NCBI GenBank assembly: GCA_025464975.1
Contig: JAODMT010000021.1
Coordinates: 1 to 64,000, forward strand
Direction of reading: 5' to 3'
From: Microbacteriaceae bacterium
GTDB lineage: Bacteria > Actinomycetota > Actinomycetes > Actinomycetales > Microbacteriaceae
Length of the DNA stretch: 64,000 bases
Part shown: positions 53,083 through 56,939 of the stretch, one piece after another
How the letters are laid out: every line of letters begins with the position of its first letter
How positions within the stretch are numbered: position 1 is the first letter of the stretch
Position numbers and translations under genes: made by a program
Notes under the pieces: generated by a model
What the model saw: only the letters and a program-made list of their open reading frames with translations
The model's database searches: none
What the model was told of the DNA's origin: nothing

Positions 53083-53098
53083 CCACTACATCTGGGGT
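53083..53098. promoter_or_regulatory. NrdR box 1
   Basis: CCACTACATCTGGGGT matches the NrdR consensus acaCwAtATaTwGtgt at about 11 of 16 positions. Its centre is 32 bp from that of box 2, leaving a 16-nt gap: the three-helical-turn spacing typical of paired NrdR sites. Confidence 0.65.
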
Positions 53099-53114: not shown

Positions 53115-53130
53115 GCCCGCTATATAGTGG
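53115..53130. promoter_or_regulatory. NrdR box 2 overlapping the nrdA -10 region
   Basis: GCCCGCTATATAGTGG keeps the right half ATATAGTG of the NrdR consensus, with a weaker left half. It contains TATATA (53121-53126), a probable -10 element, with TTAACC (53098-53103) 17 nt upstream as -35. Binding of NrdR-ATP/dATP would block the promoter. Confidence 0.65.
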
Positions 53131-53262: not shown

Positions 53263-53297
53263 GGTAGACGCGTCCAATGGACGAACGAGGAGAACAA

Positions 53298-55799
53298 GTG
53301 GCAATCACAGTAGTCAAGCGCAACGGGCAACGCGAGCCGTACGACGCCAACAAGATCAACCTCGCGATCGAGCACGCCAGCGCGGGACTCGACGACAACA
53401 TCACCTGGGTGACGCAGATCGCGAGCGAACTCGAACTCACCCTCTTCGATGGCATCACGACCCAGCAACTTGACGAGGCCGTCATCCAGGTCGCCTTGCA
53501 AAACGTCAAGGATGACCCGGCGTTCGACACCGTTGCCGCGCGCCTGCTCCTCAAGACCATCTACAAGCGGGTGCTCGGCGACTACGAGACCAGCGCGGAG
53601 CTGAAGGAGTTGCACGCCAGCCACTTCGCAGCCAATGTGAAGCGCGGGGTGGACGAGCAGCTTCTCGACCCGCGACTCACCTCCCTCTTCGACCTCGACA
53701 CCCTCGCGGGCGCCCTCGAGCCGGCGCACGACGAGCTGCTCAAGTACATCGGCGTCGTAACGCTCAACAACCGGTACGGCATCAAGGGTCGCAACGGGGA
53801 CGCCCTGGAGGTTCCGCAGTACTTCTGGATGCGGATCGCGATGGGCCTGTCGCTCAACGAGGCGAACCCGACCGAGCACGCCATCAAGTTCTACGAGAAG
53901 ATGTCACGGCTTGAGTACCTCGCCGCGGGCTCCACCCTCGTCAACGCGGGAACCATTTACCCGCAGCTCGCGAACTGCTTCGTCATGGAGATGCAGGACG
54001 ACATGGAGCACATCGCCAAGACCACCCGGGACGTGATGTGGCTCACGAAGGGCACCGGTGGCATCGGTCTCTCGGTCACAAAGCTGCGCGCGCAGGGTTC
54101 GCCCATCCGCTCGAACAACACCACCTCCACCGGGCCGATCCCGTTCATGCACACGATCGATTCAATCCTGCGTGCCGTCAGCCGCGGAGGAAAGAAGTTC
54201 GGCGCTCTGTGCTTCTACATGGAGAACTGGCACCTCGACTTCCCGGAGTTCCTCGACCTCCGTCAGAACTCCGGAGACCCCTACCGCCGCACTCGCACCG
54301 CAAACACCGCGGTGTGGATCAGTGACGAGTTCATGAAGCGCGTGCAGAACGACGACGATTGGTACCTCTTCGACCCGCTCGAGGTTCAGGATCTCAACGA
54401 GCTCTACGGCAAGGAGTTCTCGGCGAAGTACAACGAGTACGTCGCCAAGGCCGAGGCGGGCGAGATGCGCCTGTTCAAGAAGATCACGGCCCGTGAACAG
54501 TTCAAATCCATTCTCATTTCGCTGCAGACCACCAGTCACCCGTGGCTGTGCTGGAAAGACACGATCAACAACCGCGCGCTAAACAACAACACGGGCACGA
54601 TCCACCTCTCCAACCTGTGCACCGAGATCACCCTCCCGCAGGACGAGGACAACGTCTCGGTCTGCAACCTCGCGTCGATCAACCTCTCCAGGCACCTGGT
54701 CGCCGCTCCGACAGGCTCGGGGCAGGTGCCAACGCTCGACTTCGGCAAGATCGAGGAGAGCGCCCGCCTCGCCGTTCGTCAGCTCGACAACCTGATCGAC
54801 ATCACCCGGTCGTCGGTCGCCGAGGCGGACTTCTCGAACCAGCAAAACCGTGCCGTCGGACTTGGCGTGATGGGATTCACCGACATTGTGGAGAAGCTCG
54901 GCATCAGCTACGAAAGCGAAGAGTCGTACGACCTGATCGACGAGATCATGGAGCACGTCTCCTACGCGGCCATCGACGAGAGCGCGAACCTCGCCGCCGA
55001 GCGTGGGGCGTACCCGAACTTCGAGGGCTCGCGCTGGTCGCAGGGCCTCGTTCCGCTCGACTCGATCGCGCTCACCGAGGCGGATCGTGGCATGGAGATC
55101 AAGGTCAACCGCAAGACTCGGCTCGACTGGGATGCGCTGCGACTCAAGGTGAAGGCCGGGATGCGCAACGCGACGCTGATGGCGATCGCCCCGACTGCAT
55201 CCATCGGACTCGTCGCCGGCACCACCCCCGGCCTCGACCCGCAGTTCTCGCAGATCTTCAGCCGCGCCACCTCCAACGGCAAGTTCCTCGAGGTCAACCG
55301 CAACCTGGTCACTGACCTCCAGCAGCTCGGAATTTGGGACTCCACTCGCGAGTCGATCCTGCGCAGCCAGGGCGACATCCAGAACATCGATGCCATCCCC
55401 GACTCGCTCAAGGCGACATACAAGACGAGCTTCCAGTTGTCGCCGTATGCCTTCCTCGAGGTCGCCGCTCGCGCCCAGAAGTGGATCGACCAGGCCATTA
55501 GCCGCAACATGTACCTCGAGACCCGTGACCTCGGCGACATGATGGACATCTACTTCGCGGCCTGGGAGCGTGGGGTCAAGACCACGTACTACCTGCACAT
55601 GAAGCCGCGCCACACTGCGGAGCAGTCGACGGTGAAGGTGAACAAGGCGGAGGAGATCGGCACCGGCGCCCGCAAGGGCTTCGGCGCAACGGTGTCAGCG
55701 GGAGTCGCGGAGCTGGCGTCTGCCGAGGCCGCCGCACCCGCCGTCGCGCCGCGCAAGGGCTTCGGCTTCGGCGGCCTTGCACCCAAGAGCGGAGAGTGA
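53298..55799 (+). CDS. nrdA: ribonucleotide reductase class I alpha subunit
   Basis: This 833-residue catalytic subunit reduces ribonucleotides to deoxyribonucleotides. An N-terminal ATP-cone (residues about 1-95, VVKRNGQREPYDANKI) gives allosteric dATP control. Active-site cysteines can be placed in LANCFVMEMQ, SNLCTEI (with the Asn and Glu of NLCTE) and VSVCNLAS. GTG 53298 has GAGGAG upstream, better than ATG 53277. The C-terminus (RKGFGFGGLAPKSGE) has no cysteines: the redox-active CxxC tail needed for turnover by thioredoxin/glutaredoxin is missing from this frame, but a short frame ending CDSCQ begins 8 nt after the stop. Confidence 0.95.
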   Translation: MAITVVKRNGQREPYDANKINLAIEHASAGLDDNITWVTQIASELELTLFDGITTQQLDEAVIQVALQNVKDDPAFDTVAARLLLKTIYKRVLGDYETSAELKELHASHFAANVKRGVDEQLLDPRLTSLFDLDTLAGALEPAHDELLKYIGVVTLNNRYGIKGRNGDALEVPQYFWMRIAMGLSLNEANPTEHAIKFYEKMSRLEYLAAGSTLVNAGTIYPQLANCFVMEMQDDMEHIAKTTRDVMWLTKGTGGIGLSVTKLRAQGSPIRSNNTTSTGPIPFMHTIDSILRAVSRGGKKFGALCFYMENWHLDFPEFLDLRQNSGDPYRRTRTANTAVWISDEFMKRVQNDDDWYLFDPLEVQDLNELYGKEFSAKYNEYVAKAEAGEMRLFKKITAREQFKSILISLQTTSHPWLCWKDTINNRALNNNTGTIHLSNLCTEITLPQDEDNVSVCNLASINLSRHLVAAPTGSGQVPTLDFGKIEESARLAVRQLDNLIDITRSSVAEADFSNQQNRAVGLGVMGFTDIVEKLGISYESEESYDLIDEIMEHVSYAAIDESANLAAERGAYPNFEGSRWSQGLVPLDSIALTEADRGMEIKVNRKTRLDWDALRLKVKAGMRNATLMAIAPTASIGLVAGTTPGLDPQFSQIFSRATSNGKFLEVNRNLVTDLQQLGIWDSTRESILRSQGDIQNIDAIPDSLKATYKTSFQLSPYAFLEVAARAQKWIDQAISRNMYLETRDLGDMMDIYFAAWERGVKTTYYLHMKPRHTAEQSTVKVNKAEEIGTGARKGFGATVSAGVAELASAEAAAPAVAPRKGFGFGGLAPKSGE

Positions 55800-55807
55800 C
55801 GGTAGCG

Positions 55808-55876
55808 ATGAACCCCGACGAGTACTACGTTCCGGTCGATCCGATGGACGACCTTCAATGCGACAGCTGCCAATGA
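55808..55876 (+). CDS. detached CxxC tail of NrdA (separate frame)
   Basis: A 22-residue frame (ATG 55808, TGA) encodes MNPDEYYVPVDPMDD followed by LQCDSCQ. CxxCQ is a typical C-terminal ending of class I NrdA proteins, where the cysteine pair re-reduces the active site. The frame is displaced by -1 relative to nrdA; joining them would extend NrdA by 27 residues. Either a one-base indel (mutation or sequence error) has split the gene, or the tail is made by frameshifting or as a trans-acting peptide. GGAG lies 12 nt before the ATG. Confidence 0.55.
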   Translation: MNPDEYYVPVDPMDDLQCDSCQ

Positions 55877-55943: not shown

Positions 55944-56939
55944 ATGGGCATCTTGGGAACCGGCCTCCAGGAGGGGCTTCTCCTCAAACCGATTCGCTAC
56001 CAGTGGGCGATGGATCTTTACGATCAGGCCGTCGCCAACACCTGGTTCCCGAACGAGATTCAGCTCGGCGAGGACATCGCGGACTTCAAGAAGATGACCG
56101 ACGAGGAACGTCACGCCGTCACCTTCTTGATGAGCTACTTCAACCCGAACGAGCTGCTCGTGAATAAGGCGCTTGCGTTCGGTGTGTACCCGTACGTGAG
56201 CGCGGCCGAGTGCAGCATCTACCTCGCCAAGCAGATGTGGGAGGAGGCCAACCACTGTATGTCGTTCGAGTACGTGCTTGAAACGTTCCCGATCGACCGC
56301 GCGGCCGCCTACAACTCCCACATCGACATCCCCTCGATGGCGCGCAAGGAGGAGTTCGAACTCAAGTACATCCGCCGGATGACCGAGCAGACCCTCGACA
56401 TCACCACGACCGAGGGCAAGAAGGACTTCGTCCGCAACCTCGTGGCGTACAACGTGATTCTTGAGGGCGTCTGGTTCTACTCGGGATTCATGGTCGCCCT
56501 GTCGTTCCGGCAGCGCAACCTGCTGCGCAACTTCGGTTCACTCATGGACTGGGTGGTGCGTGACGAGAGCCTGCACCTCAAGTTCGGAATCAACCTCATC
56601 CTCACCGTGCTCGAGGAGAACCCCGACCTGCAGACCGAGGAGTTCGCCGCCGAGATCAAGCAGATGATTCTCGACGCCGTCGAGATGGAGGAGGAGTACA
56701 ACCGGGACCTGCTCCCCGGCGGAATCCTCGGGCTCAACGCCAACTACATCAACCAGTACGTGAAGTACCTCGCCGACCGGCGCCTCGAGGAGCTCGGCTT
56801 CGAGGCGGAATACAACGTCTCCAACCCGGCAAAGTGGATGGCGACCGCCAACGACACCCTCCAGCTCGTGAACTTCTTCGAATCGACGAACACGTCCTAC
56901 GAGTCGAACGCGTCGGCAAGCGTTGCCTCCAAGCAGTAG
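55944..56939 (+). CDS. nrdB: ribonucleotide reductase class I beta subunit, Ic-like
   Basis: This 331-residue radical subunit of ribonucleotide reductase has metal ligands inferred by alignment with E. coli NrdB as Glu70, Glu101, His104, Glu174, Glu208 and His211. The position of the radical tyrosine (E. coli Tyr122) is Phe108 here, and the first ligand is Glu, not Asp. Both features match class Ic enzymes such as Chlamydia NrdB, which use an Mn/Fe cofactor without a tyrosyl radical. ATG 55944 is preceded by ACAGGAA. It lies 67 nt after the detached tail frame of nrdA. Confidence 0.93.
   Translation: MGILGTGLQEGLLLKPIRYQWAMDLYDQAVANTWFPNEIQLGEDIADFKKMTDEERHAVTFLMSYFNPNELLVNKALAFGVYPYVSAAECSIYLAKQMWEEANHCMSFEYVLETFPIDRAAAYNSHIDIPSMARKEEFELKYIRRMTEQTLDITTTEGKKDFVRNLVAYNVILEGVWFYSGFMVALSFRQRNLLRNFGSLMDWVVRDESLHLKFGINLILTVLEENPDLQTEEFAAEIKQMILDAVEMEEEYNRDLLPGGILGLNANYINQYVKYLADRRLEELGFEAEYNVSNPAKWMATANDTLQLVNFFESTNTSYESNASASVASKQ

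Follow-up and report, generated by a model that had tools for sequence, protein, structure and literature searches.

How does a class Ia ribonucleotide reductase (RNR) complete its reaction cycle when its catalytic chain ends without a pair of redox cysteines? In the textbook class I enzyme the redox tail lies within the catalytic chain. The question is raised by the nrdA gene, encoding the RNR large subunit, in a 64,000-nucleotide stretch of DNA from a Microbacteriaceae bacterium (GenBank assembly GCA_025464975.1, contig JAODMT010000021.1, positions 1 to 64,000, forward strand), which we refer to as the window. A short open reading frame (ORF) that ends in the missing type of cysteine pair lies directly behind this gene, and an earlier note on the DNA had offered three explanations for the arrangement: a one-base indel, -1 ribosomal frameshifting or a peptide acting in trans. 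The comparisons described here support the trans peptide, rule out the indel and rule out frameshifting as a general mechanism. Very probably, the redox tail of NrdA was split off once and is now a free micro-protein that serves NrdA in trans. What is established, at the level of sequence, is the split itself, the conservation of the cysteines, the co-occurrence of tail and NrdA, the promoter elements that they share and the existence of genomes in which the two can act in trans only.

The nrdA locus of the window

The window NrdA matches the NCBIfam model PRK06539 with 1644 bits (cut-off 988) and the Pfam models ATP-cone (PF03477), Ribonuc_red_lgN (PF00317) and Ribonuc_red_lgC (PF02867), all above their cut-offs. 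Class Ia models score best, the class II NrdJ model reaching 373.8 bits against a cut-off of 399.95. The closest solved relative is NrdA of Pseudomonas aeruginosa (5im3); when the two are aligned, Cys227, Cys441 and Cys456 of the window protein fall on cysteines of 5im3 and the TTYYL segment is aligned too. We take these three to be the cysteines of the active site and the C-terminal tyrosine pair to belong to the radical path, with roles as in Escherichia coli NrdA. The only other cysteines of the protein are at residues 305 and 418, leaving its final 377 residues cysteine-free, and the earlier statement that the nrdA frame has no cysteine near its C-terminus is thereby borne out. Judged by these alignments, the core and the catalytic cysteines of the enzyme are intact and the redox tail, with the in-chain C-terminal cysteine pair that is a standard feature of class Ia NrdA, is absent. 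PF02867 has a single match in this genome (assembly 95.8 % complete), namely the window NrdA, and since this is the only RNR large subunit the enzyme should be working. The expected class Ia partner, nrdB, adjoins the locus 3' of the tail ORF.

The gene ends at TGA 55797-55799; an alternative start in the list of ORFs, the upstream ATG at 53277, would extend its product to 840 residues. The tail ORF is present as the earlier note had described it, a frame of 22 codons with a CxxC-type end, placed in frame -1 (equivalent to +2) relative to nrdA with its ATG 8 nt past the nrdA stop (Table 1). Read from the GTG at 55796 it would begin VTVAMNPDEYY.

The tail gene across the Microbacteriaceae

A search with the 22-residue peptide gave matches in 18 of 40 relatives, frequently with two or three sites in one genome, and in all 13 genomes of the window's genus that were searched, the window's own included. 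The family as a whole was surveyed through 249 Microbacteriaceae genomes of 90 % completeness or more, in which class Ia NrdA, scoring at least 627 bits, was found in 105 and the tail in 109. Every one of the 105 NrdA genomes carries a tail gene; among the 144 genomes without class Ia NrdA, 140 lack the tail as well. The remaining family genomes among the matches listed gave about 160-174 bits with the NrdA model at 28-32 % identity, as expected of proteins from another RNR class. Because it recurs three times in the genome of the window, throughout the genus genomes searched and in all NrdA genomes of the family, the tail ORF is, on this comparative evidence, not a product of chance.

When the 105 nrdA genes were all read at their 3' ends, 104 had a readable stop; the other (L272, in G256) lies at a contig edge and was left out. 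A cysteine pair within the last 20 residues was found in none of the 104 proteins, and a tail ORF lies directly behind nrdA in 100 of them (98 recognized by script, L245 and L265 by eye), counted with a relaxed motif that covers the variants VPTDPMD, VPEDPMD and VPMDPMD. A second, partly overlapping set of 80 named loci, which spans Lacisediminihabitans, Clavibacter, Leifsonia, Salinibacterium, Naasia, Microcella and other Microbacteriaceae, gave the same picture: among 78 readable genes none encodes the cysteine pair and 75 are followed by the tail. The earlier note had proposed a comparison with related nrdA ends, and of the two findings that it named as jointly refuting one was made, relatives without CxxC, and the other was not, the short frame being conserved throughout rather than unconserved. 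A sequencing error or recent mutation that broke one gene in two would, as a single -1 shift, look alike in one genome; no support for it was found. The split recurs, with differing frames and stops, at 100 of 104 family loci, it has a single deep origin (see below) and the tail is under purifying selection, which leaves this explanation with practically no probability.

The tail peptides are about 20-35 residues long (59 in one linked copy) and end in DPMDxLQC[DE]SCQ. In linked copies, that is, those behind nrdA, variation falls mainly on third codon positions, the ratio of non-synonymous to synonymous variation (pN/pS) being 0.29 over 90 distinct sequences, all of them chosen by the motif, and both cysteines are kept in 100 of 100 copies, a set likewise chosen by a motif that contains them. 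Candidate fused tails inside the family (g49, open frames of 799-801 codons) were rejected, the tail lying in another frame: NrdA stops and the tail starts anew.

The 98 scripted loci also allow the second of the original explanations to be weighed, according to which programmed -1 frameshifting, or slippage between stop and start, yields some full-length NrdA and unlinked copies are accessory. Linked tails lie in frame 2 (-1) in 82 loci, in frame 0 in 11 and in frame 1 in five; the nrdA stop ahead of them is TGA in 62, TAA in 27 and TAG in nine, and the tail start is ATG in 63, GTG in 34 and TTG in one. The dominance of frame 2 would suit frameshifting, but the same frame also results from start/stop overlaps (start at -1), which are common behind nrdA in the relatives, where GTGA, ATGA, TGATG and TAATG were seen. 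With 16 of 98 tails in frame 0 or 1 the frame relation is not constant, and the stop codon varies as well. Near the window stop no slippery heptamer was noticed on first reading, no dedicated scan having been made. Four genomes, moreover, have no tail behind nrdA, and all 99 unlinked copies that were read have a start of their own. As a general mechanism frameshifting is contradicted by these variable frames and stops and by the genomes with no linked tail, and we consider it very improbable as an account of the arrangement.

The remaining C-terminal part of NrdA is itself conserved in one respect, an [RK]GF[GA] segment near the end being present in 104 of the 105 family loci scanned, with the one other locus at a contig edge. 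A basic-GFG segment ([RK][RK]GFGFGG and variants) near the NrdA C-terminus is seen, for example, at 55683-55796 of the window, and NrdA proteins with a fused tail have similar segments in their linker. We suggest the [RK]GF[GA] segment as a possible docking site for the acidic tail peptide.

Genomes in which the tail is only unlinked

The four genomes (of the 104 readable) with no tail behind nrdA are G042, G078, G140 and G155, and all four have an unlinked tail, the best copy in each being preceded by boxes resembling the binding sites of the regulator NrdR (in G042 the pair was recognized by eye). A single PF02867 match was found in G042, G078 and G140, which are 98-100 % complete; altogether, 13 of the 14 family genomes tested beyond that of the window have one match. 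G155 has two matches, the second RNR large subunit lying at G155:C1:15217-16824, and was left out of the set. As the only tails of G042, G078 and G140 are unlinked and each has a single RNR, the pair can act there in trans only; on the evidence of these assemblies, no frameshift or readthrough can supply the NrdA tail in the three genomes.

Unlinked copies and NrdR-like boxes

Of the 105 genomes with NrdA, 99 or more also have an unlinked tail copy (98 and G042). We read one such copy per genome in 99 genomes (98 with NrdA, and G184). All 99 carry the motif and both cysteines, the set having been chosen by a cysteine-containing motif; 97 start with ATG, one with GTG and one with TTG, and all have a Shine-Dalgarno sequence of 4 to 6 nt, by which the start was in part chosen. 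A typical product is MDNENDTVGGYAVPVDPMDLLQCDSCQ. Many copies are followed by a hairpin and a T-run, visible in the sequence by eye, no terminator scan having been made. In L004 (G004:C1:787718-787774) the tail motif ends a longer ORF, about 100 residues past a possible Met start.

Upstream of 97 of the 99 copies lie tandem NrdR-like boxes that score above the 99th percentile of shuffled sequences (14.7; median 17.8). A box pair is found equally in all 30 nrdA upstream regions examined, out of 105 nrdA genes (median 18.55), and the pair before the window nrdA scores 17.5 against a 99th percentile of 14.3 for shuffled nrdA upstream regions. The consensus used for scoring is what we take the NrdR box to be. 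NrdR itself is encoded in the genome of the window (TIGR00244, 146.5 bits, cut-off 124.65). The distance between box starts is 32-33 bp, corresponding to spacers of 16-17 bp, in 96 of the 97 unlinked copies and 30 bp in one; before nrdA it is 32 bp in 27 regions, 33 bp in two and 31 bp in one. According to a published account (PMC12051234), NrdR binds best at spacers of 15-17 bp and follows a 14-17 bp spacer rule, and the observed spacers fall within those that it accepts.

In the genome of the window there are two further, unlinked tail copies, at G000:C3 339619-339687 and at about 630363-630425 of the same contig. The latter (L516 11364-11426) is located some 450 bp downstream of a tRNA-Lys gene, behind a small membrane-like ORF, and the 19.6 kb around it hold host-like genes and the tRNA-Lys gene. 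It is possibly the remnant of an element, and with these surroundings it may lie in a prophage or in the host's own DNA.

Table 1. Features of the nrdA region, with positions counted from the first nucleotide of the window
Feature	Position	Strand	Remarks
NrdR-box-like sequence 1 before nrdA	53083..53098	+	CCACTACATCTGGGGT; found by consensus scan
NrdR-box-like sequence 2 before nrdA	53115..53130	+	GCCCGCTATATAGTGG; 32 bp start to start, 16-bp spacer
nrdA, class Ia RNR large subunit	53298..55799	+	833 residues; GTG start, GAGGAG ahead; C-terminal ..APRKGFGFGGLAPKSGE
Detached redox-tail gene, ATG reading	55808..55876	+	MNPDEYYVPVDPMDDLQCDSCQ; 22 codons; stop TGA 55874-55876; CxxC at Cys18/Cys21
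Tail gene, longer reading	55796..55876	+	VTVAMNPDEYYVPVDPMDDLQCDSCQ; 26 codons; GTG overlaps nrdA stop (GTGA)
nrdB, RNR small subunit	55944..56939	+	331 residues; NCBIfam NF007186 404.5 bits (cut-off 237); Pfam Ribonuc_red_sm 250 bits

Origin of the detached tail

Outside the Microbacteriaceae, 41 genomes of the order have NrdA at E 1e-120 or better, and the 29 of these loci that were read all encode a fused, in-frame CxxCQ tail, for example ..GVACPVDPMERLQCESCQ. The tail query matches 18 outside-family genomes, with one match in each. A comparison of profiles of the detached and the fused tails (13 + 13 rows) gave a probability of 98.3 % and an E value of 1.6e-14, figures that are partly circular as the rows were picked by hand. 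By these alignments, the detached tail and the tail fused to NrdA in other families are homologous. In an NrdA tree of 58 rows, which left out G042, a single branch with support of 100/100 separates the 30 detached rows from all others, and under midpoint rooting fused rows branch on both sides of the detached group. The simplest reading of the tree is one fission, in which the NrdA tail would have split off once in the evolution of the Microbacteriaceae. Beyond the order, a search of the phylum found only G689, where the tail lies within an open frame of 909 codons, and partial matches in G726 and G732 over model positions 6/7-19, which do not include the cysteines.

Viral and plasmid copies

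Viral contigs, at least 152 of them, and 19 plasmid records also carry the tail micro-gene. A degenerate pattern gave at least 120 stretches in IMG/VR, and in 120 of the 120 listed a stop codon follows directly after the motif. With a second pattern that left both cysteine codons free there were at least 120 matches (88 in known loci and 32 new), and both cysteines were present in 120 of the 120 listed. The pN/pS of viral tails is 0.21. Proteins encoded upstream of the viral copies include terminase, holin and exonuclease family members (nine proteins tested of 97), and isolated phages with the gene are the Clavibacter phages CMP1 and CN1A and the Pontimonas phage phiPsal1. The plasmid records are from Clavibacter (15), Leifsonia (three) and Gryllotalpicola (one). 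On the plasmid of Leifsonia sp. ZF2019 (NZ_CP065038.1; L513 3953-4054) a free-standing tail of 33 residues is labelled 'ribonucleotide-diphosphate reductase subunit beta', which is probably a misnaming. One viral contig (L129) has an ORF of 66 residues ending ..PPDPANAFACESCQ, followed by a second tail-like ORF ending ..VPIDPMDDLQCESCQ; the two perhaps serve two NrdA types.

An RNR large subunit was found in none of 26 virus records tested, three of which are full phage genomes and the other 23 longer contigs, possibly fragments. This would be compatible with a different role for the viral copies alone, namely that of a decoy drawing thioredoxin or NrdA away from the host, although 23 of the records may be incomplete. 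A decoy could lose the cysteines, whereas the viral copies keep both of them together with the whole NrdA-type motif, as in a working tail; the argument is not decisive, and we regard the decoy as unlikely.

Proposed role of the free tail

In our working model the tail would have as its source the gene coupled to nrdA, to which a second, separate gene preceded by NrdR boxes is usually added. Once reduced, the micro-protein would dock on NrdA through its conserved Y-x-[VI]-P-x-D-P-M-D segment, after each turnover reduce the disulfide of the active site (by alignment Cys227-Cys456) and then leave, the oxidized form being re-reduced by a thioredoxin-type protein. Four thioredoxin-family proteins scoring above cut-off are encoded in the genome of the window. 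On this model the tail would not swing as an arm of the enzyme but carry electrons as an exchangeable component, and viral and plasmid copies would supply the same part to the host NrdA. Disulfide exchange in trans by the tail peptide, which is expected to be disordered, is the step of the model that we infer. Plausible reasons for keeping a free tail are that it may be present in excess over NrdA and that its supply may be controlled separately.

A regulatory or inhibitory peptide has to be considered beside such an electron carrier. Thioredoxin would then reduce NrdA directly, and the tail would block or sense the active site as a redox-sensitive brake. Unlinked copies with NrdR boxes and viral copies would suit a regulator too, and non-physiological thiols are described as reducing RNR active sites without the tail in E. 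coli and L. leichmannii (PMC4520616). The peptide, however, shares homology with the tail that sister lineages have fused to NrdA, both of its cysteines are kept in the viral (120/120 listed), linked (100/100) and unlinked (99/99) copies, the last two sets being motif-chosen, and genomes with a single RNR have no other terminal cysteine pair. A brake of this kind seems improbable to us.

Some observations do not sit easily with a free tail that serves NrdA in trans. Four genomes in which class Ia NrdA was not found gave a tail match: that of G184 is convincing (its assembly is 94 % complete), and those of G157, G208 and G218 are weak (E 0.001 to 0.8). The G157 match (G157:C18:26842-26898, E 0.0014) has one TGA inside the open frame. 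Two of the 99 unlinked copies read (L315 and L369) have no NrdR boxes. In a set of 120 viral copies, the best start is preceded by a Shine-Dalgarno sequence of at least 4 nt in only 64; a Shine-Dalgarno match is missing in 25, and one copy has no start in range. The linked tail of the window, too, has no strong Shine-Dalgarno sequence at either start, ATG or GTG, and for this reason we take its translation to be coupled to that of nrdA. With these points taken into account, the peptide acting in trans is still the best supported of the earlier explanations, as far as comparison of genomes can decide.

Comparison with known split reductases

The nearest parallel is the class II enzyme of P. aeruginosa, in which NrdJb is a separate polypeptide with a main role in thiol-disulfide exchange for NrdJa (PMC4520616). 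The systems are alike in that the catalytic chain is apart from a separately encoded chain with a C-terminal cysteine pair, in the adjacency of the genes and in descent from a one-chain ancestor. They differ in that NrdJab is class II (B12-dependent) and the Microbacteriaceae system class Ia, and in that NrdJb is larger and forms a tight 1:1 complex, whereas the Microbacteriaceae tail has some 20-35 residues and is mobile; the same text, so far as available, mentions no unlinked extra or virus-borne copies of NrdJab (PMC4520616). With the ordinary class Ia NrdA tail the detached tail shares homology and the position of the cysteine pair at the extreme C-terminus (..LQCESCQ in fused relatives), but the former is part of the NrdA chain and the latter a separate gene, often in two or more copies. 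Large subunits encoded in two pieces are also known from phages, as nrdA-a/nrdA-b of Aeromonas phage Aeh1 and nrdJ-a/nrdJ-b of Thermus phage phiYS40, most of the splits described there being linked to an intron, an intein or a homing endonuclease inside the gene (PMC3653736). In the Microbacteriaceae, unlike these phages, the redox tail alone is free and duplicated, and viral contigs carry the tail with no RNR found. The open-access literature, to which the search was directed (subscription papers and bioRxiv preprints being outside its scope), gave no account of a detached class I RNR tail. The Microbacteriaceae system thus appears to be a variant of the split RNR, a known kind, of which the detached class I tail itself would be new.

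It seems to us somewhat more probable than otherwise that the class I RNR of this family uses a third, exchangeable and NrdR-regulated redox subunit, and that the tail gene is a mobile part carried alone by phages and plasmids to feed or control the synthesis of deoxynucleoside triphosphates (dNTPs) in the host. If so, the viral copies would constitute a very small and so far unnoticed metabolic gene, among the smallest auxiliary metabolic genes, and if the supply of the tail is limiting and controlled by NrdR it would represent a new way to tune dNTP production. Annotation is lacking or wrong for many tail genes, and ORFs skipped by gene callers may hold an essential function. A naturally free tail also makes a debated step testable, as synthetic peptides would allow docking to be measured, along with the transfer of reducing equivalents and its speed. 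For the Microbacteriaceae with class Ia NrdA, a step thought to occur within one protein probably occurs between two.

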